Source of the DNA: Chitinophagales bacterium
GTDB taxonomy: Bacteria > Bacteroidota > Bacteroidia > Chitinophagales > UBA10324
DNA length: 64,000 nucleotides
Reading direction: 5' to 3'
Assembly (NCBI GenBank): GCA_025056305.1
Contig: JANWWJ010000022.1
Span: 124,001-188,000, forward strand
Positions 7,322 to 17,925 of the stretch are shown piece by piece. Numbering within the stretch: position 1 is the first letter of the stretch; the number at the start of each line of letters is the position of its first letter. The translations under genes were made by a program, and so were the position numbers. The notes under the pieces are model-generated. The model searched no databases. It was not told the DNA's origin and saw only the letters and a program-made list of their open reading frames with translations.

Positions 7322-7911
7322 TACCGGCCGGCAGCAAAGAGTTCAGCCTCCACCAGTTGGCATATGATGTGCCCCATAAGCATGTGCACCTCCTGAATTC
7401 GGGGGGTATCAGTGGAGGGAACATTGAGCAAAATGTCGCACAGGGAGGCCATCCTGCCTCCGGTGGCTCCGGTCATGCCTACGGTGAGCAGCCCCAGGCG
7501 ACGCGCCTCTTCCAAAGCACGAATCACGTTTGCCGAATTACCAGAGGTAGAAAGAGCGATGAGGACATCACCGCTTCGCCCCCGGGCCTTAACCAGTCGG
7601 GAAAAAACCTGGTCGTAGCCGTAATCGTTACCTACTGCTGTCAGGTAGGATGTGTTCACGTGCAAGGCCTCAGCATCCAGAGGGTCACGATCGCTGTAGA
7701 AACGTCCGCTGAGTTCCGCTGCCAGATGCTGGGCATCGGCAGCGCTACCGCCGTTGCCGCAAAACAAAACCTTACCTCCCTTTCGGTAGCAATGTACGAT
7801 GGCCTCCGCCACCTGACGCACCCGATCCAGCAATGAGGCATCAGCAAGTACCTGCTGCTTGACCAAAACCGACGATTCAAAAATTTTCCTGATCTGACCG
7901 GAATCCATCAT
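7321..7911 (-). CDS. gmhA: Sedoheptulose 7-phosphate isomerase
   Basis: A 196-residue SIS-domain enzyme that isomerises sedoheptulose 7-phosphate to D-glycero-D-manno-heptose 7-phosphate, the committed step to activated heptose. Visible motifs are FCGNGGSAADAQHLAAELSGRF (phosphosugar binding and the conserved DAQH), YDQVFSRLVKA, and LIALSTSGNSANVI. HMLMGHIICQLVEAEL carries the C-terminal metal/active-site residues. Length is normal for GmhA. The gene sits 8 bases after hddA and overlaps the fused hddC-gmhB start by one base (TAATG), so the three form one translationally linked unit. A cytoplasmic tetramer is expected from the family. Confidence 0.95.
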   Translation of the reverse strand: MMDSGQIRKIFESSVLVKQQVLADASLLDRVRQVAEAIVHCYRKGGKVLFCGNGGSAADAQHLAAELSGRFYSDRDPLDAEALHVNTSYLTAVGNDYGYDQVFSRLVKARGRSGDVLIALSTSGNSANVIRALEEARRLGLLTVGMTGATGGRMASLCDILLNVPSTDTPRIQEVHMLMGHIICQLVEAELFAAGR

Positions 7912-14102: not shown

Positions 14103-15095
14103 GTGGAGCTCCAAAACCTCAAGAAACAATTCCGGCACCAACGCATAGCCGTAGTGGGTGATGTAATGCTCGATCGGTACTTAATCGGTACGGTAGACCG
14201 CATTTCGCCGGAAGCGCCGGTACCTGTCTTACATGTAGAAAAAATCACCGAGCACGCCGGTGGAGCAGCTAATGTGGCGGTGAACCTGCATTCATTGGGA
14301 GCACGCGTATGGCTTGGCGGCATGGTGGGCCCCGACGAGGCAGCCGCAAAACTGTATCGGCTGCTGCGCAATCATGGCATCAAAGATTTGTTTTTGTTTA
14401 CCAATCCGGAATACACTACGGCCATCAAAACGCGCCTCATGGCCCGAAACCACCAAATGCTCCGCTACGACCAGGAAACCACCAAAAGCCCCTCGGCGAA
14501 GCTGGAGCAACAATTGTTACAGAAACTGTTTAAATCCCTGGAGAGCTTCCAACCCCAGGCACTCATCATTCAGGATTATAACAAAGGGTTGCTTACCAAA
14601 ACCATCATCGAACGCATTATTGATTTTTGCAGGAAAAAGGGCATTTTGAGTGCTGTCGATCCAAAGCGTAAAAACTTTTTTGCATATAAAAAAGTAGATG
14701 TATTTAAACCCAATTTACGGGAAGTGCGCGAAGCCCTCACCTTGGAAGATGTCCCCCTCACCCACGACGGGTTGCTCATGATCCACCGCCAGCTGCGGCG
14801 TCGACTGCAGCACCGCATCACTTTGTTGACGCTAGCCGAACGAGGCCTCTTTTATGCCGATGGGCGTCAGGCAGCCTGGGCAGCTGCGCACCCCCGTGAC
14901 GTGGCAGACGTATCCGGTGCCGGCGATACCGTCATTGCGGTAGCGACCCTGGCATTGAGCACGGGCTTATTGCTGGACCAGGCAGCGCAGCTCGCCAACC
15001 TATGTGGAGGGTTGGTCTGCGAACATGCCGGCGTCGTGCCCATCACCTGGCCCATGCTGGAACGCGCCTGGAAAAGCGAGATCGATTATGGCTAA
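14103..15095 (+). CDS. hldA: D-glycero-beta-D-manno-heptose 7-phosphate kinase (RfaE domain I)
   Basis: A 330-residue PfkB/ribokinase-family kinase. VVGDVMLDRYLIGTVDRISPEAP at the N-terminus is the hallmark of the RfaE/HldE kinase domain. GGAANVAVNLHSLGA is PfkB signature 1, and ADVSGAGDTVIAVATLAL contains the catalytic Asp of signature 2. The protein stops there: the cytidylyltransferase-like domain of bifunctional HldE is absent, so the adenylyl step must be on another gene. It starts with GTG; the next ATG falls within the conserved motif. Its last eight bases overlap the start of the glycosyltransferase fusion. It uses the beta anomer, in contrast to HddA at 7920-8945. Confidence 0.88.
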   Translation: MELQNLKKQFRHQRIAVVGDVMLDRYLIGTVDRISPEAPVPVLHVEKITEHAGGAANVAVNLHSLGARVWLGGMVGPDEAAAKLYRLLRNHGIKDLFLFTNPEYTTAIKTRLMARNHQMLRYDQETTKSPSAKLEQQLLQKLFKSLESFQPQALIIQDYNKGLLTKTIIERIIDFCRKKGILSAVDPKRKNFFAYKKVDVFKPNLREVREALTLEDVPLTHDGLLMIHRQLRRRLQHRITLLTLAERGLFYADGRQAAWAAAHPRDVADVSGAGDTVIAVATLALSTGLLLDQAAQLANLCGGLVCEHAGVVPITWPMLERAWKSEIDYG

Positions 15096-17925
15096 AGAAA
15101 AAAAAGCGGCCTCAGCCCCCCCATTGCGCAAGCTAAGCCTCATCATCCCCTGCTATAATGAGGCCCTTCGCTTCAGCCGTTTGGAACAAGAGCTGCAGCA
15201 GTTTGCCGCCAAAGCCCCCTTTGACTTTGAAATCATTTTGGTCAACGACGGCAGCACGGATCGCACCGCTCAGTGCGTTGCTGAAAGTGCCTGGTTGCAA
15301 CAGCTTCAACAACAAGGGCGATTTATTTATATCGAACTGGACCACAATCAGGGAAAAGGTGCTGCTTTGAAATTAGGAGCAGCAAAAGCCTCGGGCAGTC
15401 ATCTGCTCACTTTGGATGCCGATATGGCGGCATCGCCGCTTACCTTGCTGCACTGGCTGGAGCATTATCCCCAATGTTTTGAAAAACCACAAATCCTGAT
15501 TGGCTCTCGTGAGCATCCGCTTTCGCAGGTCACCGACAGTACGGGCCGTCGTTTGGCCGGTCGCATTTTCAATCTATTCATCCGCCTGATCGCTGCTTTA
15601 CCCCTGCGCGACACCCAATGTGGTTTCAAGCTTTATCCGGCCGCCATAGGGCAATTCCTCTTTCGCCGACTGTATAACTGCGGCTGGGCACACGACATTG
15701 AATTGTTGCTGCGTGCTCGTCAATACGGCTTCGCCATTCACGAACTACCCCTGCACTGGCAAGCTGTTCCGGGCAGTAAGATCGTCGTCTGGCGCCACAT
15801 GATCCCCATGTTTTGGGCGTTGCTGACCATCACTTTACGCCTCCGTTGGGAATATTTTGTGACAGAGCCTCTGCAGGTGCTGCGGCGCCAGTCTTTCCCC
15901 GAATTTGCACAGCCGCAACAAGCTCCCTTCAGGCTGGCCTTTTTTTCCTTAAGCGCCTTTTTGCTGTTTTTAATGGCTGCCCTCAGCTTTGATTACGGAA
16001 TTACGGGCGATGACCTTGATCAGAAAATCTACGGCGAAGCCGTTCTGGATTTTTACACCACGTGGGGTCGCGATACTTCTTGCCTGCATGTTAAAGTGGG
16101 TAACAAAGACAACCTTTATTTATATGGCGGCTTATTTAATATGATTTCTGCTGCTGCCAACCGCTACATCGGCGGTTTGGATGAATACGACATGCGGCAC
16201 CTGATCAATTCCATAAGTGGCTGGGCGGCTATCGTTTTCACCGGCTTGCTGGCGCATCGTCTCGGAGGGTGGCTGGCTGCCGTGCTGGCGTTGGTGTTGC
16301 TTGCTTCATGGCCCCAATTCTTCGGCCACTCCATGAACAACCCCAAGGACATCCCATTTGCCCTTGGCTATGTATGGTCTATTTATTACTTGGTAAAAAT
16401 GGTAGCTGAAGTGCCCCGCGTAACGCTCCGCACATGGATGATGCTCACCCTGGCAATTGCCTTCACCATAAACATCCGTGTTGGTGGGCTCGTGTTGCTG
16501 GGCATGTTGCTCGCCTTTGCCGGCGGAGCTTATGTACTCATGCCGGAAGTGCGCCGGGCTTTTTATACCGAAAAGAGCTATATACCCTTCCTGAGAAATC
16601 TGCTCGTTGTAATGATCGTTGCCTATTTCGGTGGACTGTTATTCTGGCCTTATGGTTTGCTGAATCCCTTCAGCCATCCCTTCATTGCCTTACGTGAGAT
16701 GACTAATTTCAGCATGGGCATCCGCGTGTTGTTTGAAGGCCGGCATCTCATGAGCGACGAGATCCCGTGGTATTACATACCTAAATGGATTGGCATCACA
16801 ACACCCCTGGTGGTTTTGTTTGGTTTTGCGTTATCTCCTCTGCTGTTGTTGCGTCGCACTCAGGCCAGGCCGTTGCTCGTGCTGGTGGCTTTTGCTTTGA
16901 TTTTTCCTTGGGCCTATACCGTTTATAAAAGCTCGGCTTTATATGATGGACTGCGTCAAATGCTGTTTTTATTACCACTGATTGCCGTTTTTGCTGCGCT
17001 TTCCTGGCAATGGCTCTGGAATGCTGCCCGCAGGCCAGCACTTCGCTTCGCCGCCATTCTTGGTTTTTCGGTTGGCCTGTTTTTGCCCCTGCGCTTCTGT
17101 GTAGCCAATCATCCAAATCAATATGTGTATTTCAATGAACTGATCGGAGGCATTCGTGGCGCATATGGTCGCTACGATACTGATTATTATATGAACAGCA
17201 TCCGCAAAACCTCTGAATGGTTGCGTCACAGCTCCTATTTTCAGCAAGCCTCGGCTCAGCGCAAGCTCCTGATTGCCACCAACGCCGTTGATCCGGTCAA
17301 TTGGTACTTCCGAAACGACACCGACAAGGTTCATATCGTATTCACCAAATGGCATGCCCCTGGCAACCCCAAAACTCGCGGTGCCCGTGACTGGGATGTA
17401 GGCATCTATTTTTCCCGCGACGTAGATGCTTCCCAACTTAAAAGTGGCGCCTGGCCGTCGCGCAAGGCAGTGTATTTAAATACTGCCGATGGCGTACCGC
17501 TCTCGGCAGTGATTGAACGCGGAGGAAAGTCGGATCTACTCGGCTACCAGGCCATGCAGCGGAATGATTGGACGGAGGCCCTCCGCTATTTGGAACAGGC
17601 CCTTGAGGAAAACCCACAAAACGAAGATGCGGCCCTCTGGCTTGCACAAACCTACTTGCACATGGGCCGCTTTGCAGAGGCCCTTCGCACCGCACAGCAT
17701 TACTTAAGTCTTTTTCCCACTTCGCCTCACGGACTCATCACTGCCGGTTCTGCTGCCGCCTCTGCCGGCAACACACAACAAGCTATTGCCTATCTTCAAA
17801 AAGCCACCATGTTGAGTCCGTATAATCCACAGCCTTATTATTTACTTGCTCTGATCTACCAACAAGCCGGTGATGCGCAGGCCGCACAACGCTTCATGAG
17901 TCGTTACCGACAATTGAGTCGGTGA
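15088..17925 (+). CDS. GT2 glycosyltransferase / GT-C membrane / TPR fusion protein
   Basis: A 945-residue three-part protein. Residues 15-245 are a GT2 domain of the dolichyl/polyprenyl-phosphate sugar synthase type (LSLIIPCYNEALRF, LVNDGSTDRTAQ, TLDADMAASPLTLL with the DxD, and DTQCGFKLYPA). From about 290 a polytopic membrane part begins (about eleven helices). Its first periplasmic loop holds DYGITGDDLDQKIYGE, which has the acidic motif expected in a GT-C/PMT enzyme. Residues 810-945 are TPRs (YLEQALEENPQNEDAALWLAQTYL and later units). I infer that one protein makes a lipid-linked sugar and transfers it across the membrane. The ATG at 15088 overlaps the hldA stop by eight bases; the longer frame from 15004 is not conserved. 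Confidence 0.85.
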   Translation: MAKEKKAASAPPLRKLSLIIPCYNEALRFSRLEQELQQFAAKAPFDFEIILVNDGSTDRTAQCVAESAWLQQLQQQGRFIYIELDHNQGKGAALKLGAAKASGSHLLTLDADMAASPLTLLHWLEHYPQCFEKPQILIGSREHPLSQVTDSTGRRLAGRIFNLFIRLIAALPLRDTQCGFKLYPAAIGQFLFRRLYNCGWAHDIELLLRARQYGFAIHELPLHWQAVPGSKIVVWRHMIPMFWALLTITLRLRWEYFVTEPLQVLRRQSFPEFAQPQQAPFRLAFFSLSAFLLFLMAALSFDYGITGDDLDQKIYGEAVLDFYTTWGRDTSCLHVKVGNKDNLYLYGGLFNMISAAANRYIGGLDEYDMRHLINSISGWAAIVFTGLLAHRLGGWLAAVLALVLLASWPQFFGHSMNNPKDIPFALGYVWSIYYLVKMVAEVPRVTLRTWMMLTLAIAFTINIRVGGLVLLGMLLAFAGGAYVLMPEVRRAFYTEKSYIPFLRNLLVVMIVAYFGGLLFWPYGLLNPFSHPFIALREMTNFSMGIRVLFEGRHLMSDEIPWYYIPKWIGITTPLVVLFGFALSPLLLLRRTQARPLLVLVAFALIFPWAYTVYKSSALYDGLRQMLFLLPLIAVFAALSWQWLWNAARRPALRFAAILGFSVGLFLPLRFCVANHPNQYVYFNELIGGIRGAYGRYDTDYYMNSIRKTSEWLRHSSYFQQASAQRKLLIATNAVDPVNWYFRNDTDKVHIVFTKWHAPGNPKTRGARDWDVGIYFSRDVDASQLKSGAWPSRKAVYLNTADGVPLSAVIERGGKSDLLGYQAMQRNDWTEALRYLEQALEENPQNEDAALWLAQTYLHMGRFAEALRTAQHYLSLFPTSPHGLITAGSAAASAGNTQQAIAYLQKATMLSPYNPQPYYLLALIYQQAGDAQAAQRFMSRYRQLSR

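Follow-up and report, generated by a model that had tools for sequence, protein, structure and literature searches.

Can the enzyme that attaches a sugar to a membrane lipid and the enzyme that uses it reside on one polypeptide? This question is raised by a gene in a 64,000-nucleotide stretch of a Chitinophagales bacterium genome (assembly GCA_025056305.1, contig JANWWJ010000022.1, positions 124,001 to 188,000), hereafter referred to as the window. The gene encodes a protein of 945 amino acids, in which an N-terminal domain of glycosyltransferase family 2 (GT2), similar to polyprenyl-phosphate-sugar synthases, is followed by a membrane transferase with the glycosyltransferase C (GT-C) fold and by tetratricopeptide repeats (TPRs). 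The first enzyme probably loads the sugar onto the lipid and the second probably uses it outside the cell membrane, in which case the gene itself fixes which synthase serves which GT-C, a match that usually has to be inferred. The fusion is real, conserved and, in the literature searched, unreported so far; its parts and the suggested chemistry are already known. No account of a GT2–GT-C fusion was found in that literature, with most subscription papers outside its scope, and the absence of such an account is unproven.

Domain architecture of the fusion protein

The reading frame extends from an ATG at 15088 to a stop codon ending at 17925, with 0 internal stops. An AlphaFold2 model of the whole protein, computed from an alignment of 15 sequences, has a mean predicted local distance difference test score (pLDDT) of 87.2 and a predicted template modelling score (pTM) of 0.85. 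A preliminary description of the window, made from the letters alone, had read this frame as a lipid-linked sugar synthase, a membrane transferase with a GDDLDQ loop and C-terminal TPRs, and all of these assignments are upheld by the Pfam, fold and alignment results.

In the N-terminal domain, Pfam Glycos_transf_2 (PF00535) covers residues 17–127 (E 2e-20), and residues 11–254 match the fold of the dolichol-phosphate-mannose synthase PfDPMS (5mlz, Z 23.8 over 227 residues) and of ArnC (9bhe, Z 22.2, 26% identity in the structural alignment). A profile made from 8 intact GT2 domains aligns with GtrB (positions 9–188), ArnC (12–196) and DPMS (13–181), including the acceptor half, whereas its matches to the other GT2 structures listed are limited to the first 110–150 positions. 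The GT-A fold, together with homology past the nucleotide-binding half, places the domain among the synthases. Its motifs are intact in the window protein (NDGST, residues 53–57; DAD, residues 110–112), and D110 and D112 are invariant among the 8 aligned intact GT2s. We take the domain to resemble eukaryotic ALG5 as well (DTQCGFK signature).

Residues 274–813 match AglB (3waj, Z 26.8), ALG12 (9s6t, 26.4), ArnT (5f15, 24.8; 12% identity in the structural alignment) and Pmt4 (9i5l, 24.3), and oligosaccharyltransferase (OST) is also among the structure matches at Z 24–27, which identifies the fold as GT-C. In an alignment of 96 GT-C domains, including 13 from the decayed fusions described below, D308, N418, D421, R464, W520, Y563 and R623 are unchanged in all rows, and K420 is kept in 95. 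D308 belongs to the GDDLDQ stretch (residues 307–312) and, as predicted from the fold, is the conserved aspartate of the first extracytoplasmic loop, the catalytic-loop position. The TPRs begin at about residue 818, with TPR_19 at residues 822–879 (E 1.4e-20), and their helix pairs are visible in the AlphaFold2 model. The TMTC-specific domain DUF1736 is not among the 25 Pfam families listed, of 36, for the fusion protein.

Occurrence of the fusion and arrangements among relatives

The full-length fusion is present in many independent genomes, which rules out that two genes were joined here by a sequencing error. A first survey of 60 genomes found it in 13 of the 16 genomes of the query's family, in one case truncated by a contig end. 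Among 198 genomes sampled evenly across the order, 74 contained a GT-C relative (E <= 1e-40) and 15 the full-length fusion, with the family contributing 10 of its 11 genomes. Across the phylum, such a relative was found in just 3 of 296 genomes, the window's own among them; close relatives are therefore mostly confined to the order. The preliminary description had considered that the GT2 and membrane parts might prove separate in all close relatives. Instead, the close relatives are fused, and separate GT2 and GT-C genes were found in more distant relatives only.

A search of named genomes returned 440 relatives, of which the best 80 were kept (78 titled Bacteroidota, the other two uncultured bacterium). 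Based on their open reading frames (ORFs) and domains, these loci were divided into four classes: fusions with this GT2 (class A, 34 loci), GT2 and GT-C as adjacent genes (class B, 13 loci), GT-C without this GT2 beside it (class C, 21 loci) and fusions with a decayed N-terminus (class D, 12 loci). GT2 motifs were read in 32 of the 34 class A loci, while L049 and L105 are truncated by contig ends and were assigned by BLAST alone. The spacing of the two genes in class B ranges from a 111-base overlap to a 15-base gap, and a GT2/GT-C gene pair is adjacent also in L033. Within class D, N-terminal homology to the intact GT2 is clear in L112 (54 bits), L099 (42), L113 (38), L087 (36) and L117 (28), weak in L097 (20) and L094 (15), and not significant alone in L090 (5) and L067 (4); the status of the last four rests on position and, for L090 and L067, also on their tree clade with L087, L112 and L117. 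Motifs were read in 11 of the 12 class D loci (L117 is truncated at its N-terminus), and the motif columns of strongly diverged rows depend on the alignment. Together, the fused, split, decayed and replaced forms offer a natural series for testing the need for physical coupling.

In one further locus, L024 (1453–4260), the two parts, GT2 and GT-C, share a reading frame but are separated by a lone TAA, with 3 bases between the ORFs. This is either a natural split or a sequencing error, and the locus was counted as split.

A methyltransferase accompanies the intact synthase

Most loci with an intact GT2 have a nearby gene for a methyltransferase of about 240 amino acids (Pfam Methyltransf_23). 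It lies directly downstream of the fusion in 22 of the 31 class A loci with enough sequence, a count that leaves out three loci with fewer than 700 bases downstream, includes two weak matches (61–62 bits; L065 and L095) and omits L039, with an overlap of 138 bases (50 allowed), and L103, where the gene is 1.6 kb away. In 10 of the 13 class B loci, it is located divergently upstream of the GT2 gene. By comparison, none of 20 class C loci and none of 12 class D loci had it directly downstream, and the 21 class C loci gave no match to it at all; an 80-bit match 1.07 kb downstream in L069, the sole match among the 12 class D loci, was left out of the count. In Saprospira grandis (L123, 1474–2978), a methyltransferase ORF shares 28 bases with an unfused GT2 ORF, in which DAD and DSQCG motifs are present, and this pair is far from the decayed fusion of the species. 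Since class A, class B and the S. grandis pair all show both genes, the methyltransferase accompanies the intact GT2 in three arrangements. We infer that it acts in the same pathway in most relatives whose synthase is intact, where it possibly methylates the sugar.

Predicted pathway

We consider it likely, from sequence and model, that the window protein is a bifunctional glycosyltransferase that performs two steps of a three-step pathway of the GtrA/GtrB/GT-C type, in which a lipid-linked sugar is used outside the cytoplasm. In the first step, as its family and its intact motifs suggest, the GT2 domain would act in the cytoplasm and charge undecaprenyl phosphate with a sugar taken from a nucleotide donor, most likely a UDP-hexose. 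The undecaprenyl-phosphate-linked sugar would be turned to the periplasmic face by a flippase different from GtrA, which (as PF04138) has 0 matches in the window's genome (7 of 14 genomes in the control). There, the GT-C domain, judging from its fold and invariant residues, would pass the sugar to a periplasmic acceptor. The TPRs, which the ArnT-like fold would place in the periplasm, may bind either the acceptor or another protein that acts as a partner, with a protein acceptor slightly preferred. This two-step reading is supported by the relatives, in which the same GT2/GT-C pair is adjacent, abutting or overlapping in 13 of the 80 loci. The GT-C is also tied to a polyprenyl-phosphate-sugar synthase in other ways, namely by GtrB/ArnC-like neighbours and by epimerase plus PgfS-like GT2 genes (see below).

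Several observations weigh against this pathway. Of the two transferase families that the preliminary description expected in a domain search, Pfam confirmed GT2, but the membrane part matched PMT_2 (PF13231, residues 375–510) at 22.2 bits, below the cut-off of 26.1, so that the GT-C claim rests on the fold. The one flippase family searched for, GtrA, was not found. The methyltransferase has no match at 1e-10 in this genome or in that of a genus mate and is therefore not needed in the former. Finally, the GT-C manages without a fused synthase in the decayed and GT-C-only lineages, and the fusion is thus not essential to it.

The adjacent genes of the 13 class B loci, which often overlap, also suit a plain linear join of two neighbours, without mechanistic gain and with each half working as if alone. 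We regard such a join as possible but rather unlikely, as the link is kept over several families and also where the synthase is dead, which suggests that the link itself has value.

Decay of the N-terminal domain and possible replacement synthases

In both S. grandis strains and in Aureispira CCB-QB1, all of them members of class D, the N-terminus is plainly homologous to GT2 but has ADGS or WSRK at the DAD stretch. A quick tree of the 96 GT-C domains, in which several deep rows are long-branched and unsure in placement, has 13 decayed rows and implies at least 3 changes to the decayed state by starred branches. Within an otherwise intact Saprospiraceae clade (99, starred), S. grandis and Aureispira CCB-QB1 appear at different places. 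The unusual point is that the active site of the synthase was lost repeatedly and the domain was nevertheless retained.

Between the two S. grandis strains, the ratio of non-synonymous to synonymous substitution rates (dN/dS) is 0.18 for the decayed domain (29 synonymous and 21 non-synonymous changes) versus 0.055 for the GT-C; constraint is relaxed, and the domain is kept. The pairs L067/L090 and L094/L097 gave 0.21 and 0.17, with synonymous sites near or past saturation. A model of the S. grandis decayed fusion, compared with known structures, matched ArnC and GtrB at E of about 3e-5 to 7e-5, ranked after OST, TPR and ArnT rows, and another structure search gave GT-C and TPR only among the 50 matches listed. 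The model was built on an alignment with intact relatives, and its retained GT-A fold is not independent evidence.

Some decayed fusions adjoin another synthase gene. A GtrB/ArnC-like gene (311–322 amino acids) on the same strand and within 531 bases is present at 5 of the 12 class D loci versus 0 of the 34 class A loci; the GtrB-like profile was made from 4 of these 5 genes and then used for the count, with L067 as the sole independent find, and at L094, L099 and L117 there is too little upstream sequence to exclude such a neighbour. Fisher tests on the loci do not account for their relatedness, and the resulting p values serve as illustration only. In L097, the gene occurs on the opposite strand only, 2.8 kb off, and none was found beside either S. 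grandis locus or L113. Elsewhere in its genome, S. grandis contains a free-standing GT2 with intact motifs (72–73 bits). Such a pattern would be expected if another synthase replaced the dead one in trans, and equally if the domain is being lost slowly because deletions at the start of a membrane protein are difficult.

We tentatively propose, with doubt, a further, non-catalytic role for the GT2 domain. At least three lineages lost the active site yet stayed fused, two of them within the intact Saprospiraceae fusion clade. Purifying selection is seen where two near strains can be compared, a different synthase gene adjoins some loci, and S. grandis encodes a synthase of the GT2 domain's own type at another site. 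If the proposal is true, the fused domain would be a docking platform that takes a synthase or its lipid-linked product and passes it to the GT-C, forming a channelled lipid-sugar pathway around a pseudoenzyme. That the domain docks or stabilizes the GT-C besides or instead of acting as a synthase, its own catalysis being dispensable, appears improbable to us: the 13 decayed rows, the selection on the S. grandis domain and its predicted match to ArnC and GtrB (from a model aligned with intact relatives) point in this direction, but the catalytic motifs are intact in the window protein and its close relatives, and evolution is faster in the decayed domain than in the GT-C.

Several GT-C-only loci have an epimerase plus PgfS-like GT2 gene 1.2–1.9 kb upstream. 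In L074 (4734–9862), the GT-C-only gene is preceded by a split transketolase pair, a gene for a 643-residue protein and two methyltransferases, a set shared in part by L073, L080 and L096. The 643-residue protein is a nucleotide-sugar epimerase/dehydratase joined to a PgfS-like GT2, and its gene is found in the same three loci. In L117, a second GT-C-like ORF of 451 amino acids starts 82 bases after the fusion.

Relation to known glycosylation systems

The two domain folds match those of ArnC (GT2) and ArnT (GT-C), from which they differ in sequence (26% identity to 9bhe and 12% to 5f15). ArnC and ArnT are separate proteins, and to our knowledge ArnT has no TPRs. Three-component extracytoplasmic glycosylation of the GtrA/GtrB/Gtr type uses a synthase, a flippase and a GT-C as separate components (PMC11127046). 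Both that system and the window protein combine a polyprenyl-phosphate-sugar synthase with a GT-C that would act in the periplasm; here, however, synthase and GT-C form one polypeptide, and GtrA was not found in the genome. The human O-mannosyltransferases TMTC1–4 have a GT-C membrane part followed by TPRs in the lumen of the endoplasmic reticulum (PMC7801869). The window protein is a bacterial GT-C and TPR enzyme sharing this layout, with the lumen corresponding to the periplasm, but the TMTC proteins are without an N-terminal synthase domain. Their donor, dolichyl-phosphate mannose, is made elsewhere.

Ppm1 of Mycobacterium tuberculosis is a polyprenyl-phosphate-mannose synthase whose link to a membrane protein varies among species, from a fusion to two neighbouring genes (PMC3485146). 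It sets a precedent for such variation between fused and separate forms of a synthase, although its fused partner, with six membrane segments, is not a GT-C. The partner is the apolipoprotein N-acyltransferase Lnt. The O-glycosylation pathway of Bacteroidota, much of which is uncharacterized (PMC12871550), is a possible home for the acceptor; nothing in our analysis links the two.

The upstream kinase and a possible heptose donor

The features of the window discussed here are collected in Table 1.

Table 1. Coordinates of the fusion gene, its predicted domains and motifs, and nearby genes in the window.
Feature	Position	Strand	Basis
Coding sequence, 945 aa: GT2 synthase domain, GT-C transferase and TPRs	15088..17925	+	ORF, Pfam, AlphaFold2 model, fold matches
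GT2 domain, aa 11–254, DPMS/ArnC/GtrB-like polyprenyl-phosphate-sugar synthase	15118..15849	+	PF00535, fold, profile
DXD motif, D110-A-D112	15415..15423	+	Motif reading and alignment
GT-C membrane domain and extracytoplasmic domain, aa 274–813	15907..17526	+	Fold
GDDLDQ, aa 307–312, first extracytoplasmic loop; D308 invariant	16006..16023	+	Alignment of 96 rows
NPKD motif (N418, K420, D421)	16339..16350	+	Alignment of 96 rows
TPR region, aa 815–944, probably periplasmic	17530..17919	+	Pfam, model; side inferred from ArnT-like fold
PfkB-family kinase, RfaE-domain-I-like	14103..15095	+	PF00294 5.4e-36; TIGR02198
gmhA-like gene, ~6.3 kb from the kinase	7348–7803	-	TIGR00441 205 bits, cut-off 209

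The preliminary description had taken the coupling of the fusion to the upstream kinase gene as a hint that the sugar could be a heptose or another LPS-type sugar. The kinase stop overlaps the fusion ATG by 8 bases (ATGGCTAA), and the kinase scores 315.3 bits against TIGR02198, which has a cut-off of 345; it is related but below the equivalog line. Homologues of the kinase occur in the flanks of 7 of the 80 related loci, every one in the query's clade; for 5 of them, the distance between kinase and fusion is about 3 kb, with other genes between. As the kinase is near the fusion in this clade only, the overlap reflects local synteny and is no sign of the donor. That the GT2 supplies heptose, carried from ADP-heptose via the adjoining kinase to undecaprenyl phosphate and then to the lipopolysaccharide core or another acceptor, is in our judgement very improbable given this narrow distribution, even though the overlap and the presence of ADP-heptose genes speak for it. 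What stands of the suggestion is those genes: in addition to the gmhA-like gene, rfaE2 is present on another contig (TIGR02199, 197 bits), and by gene content an ADP-heptose route in the window's genome is plausible.

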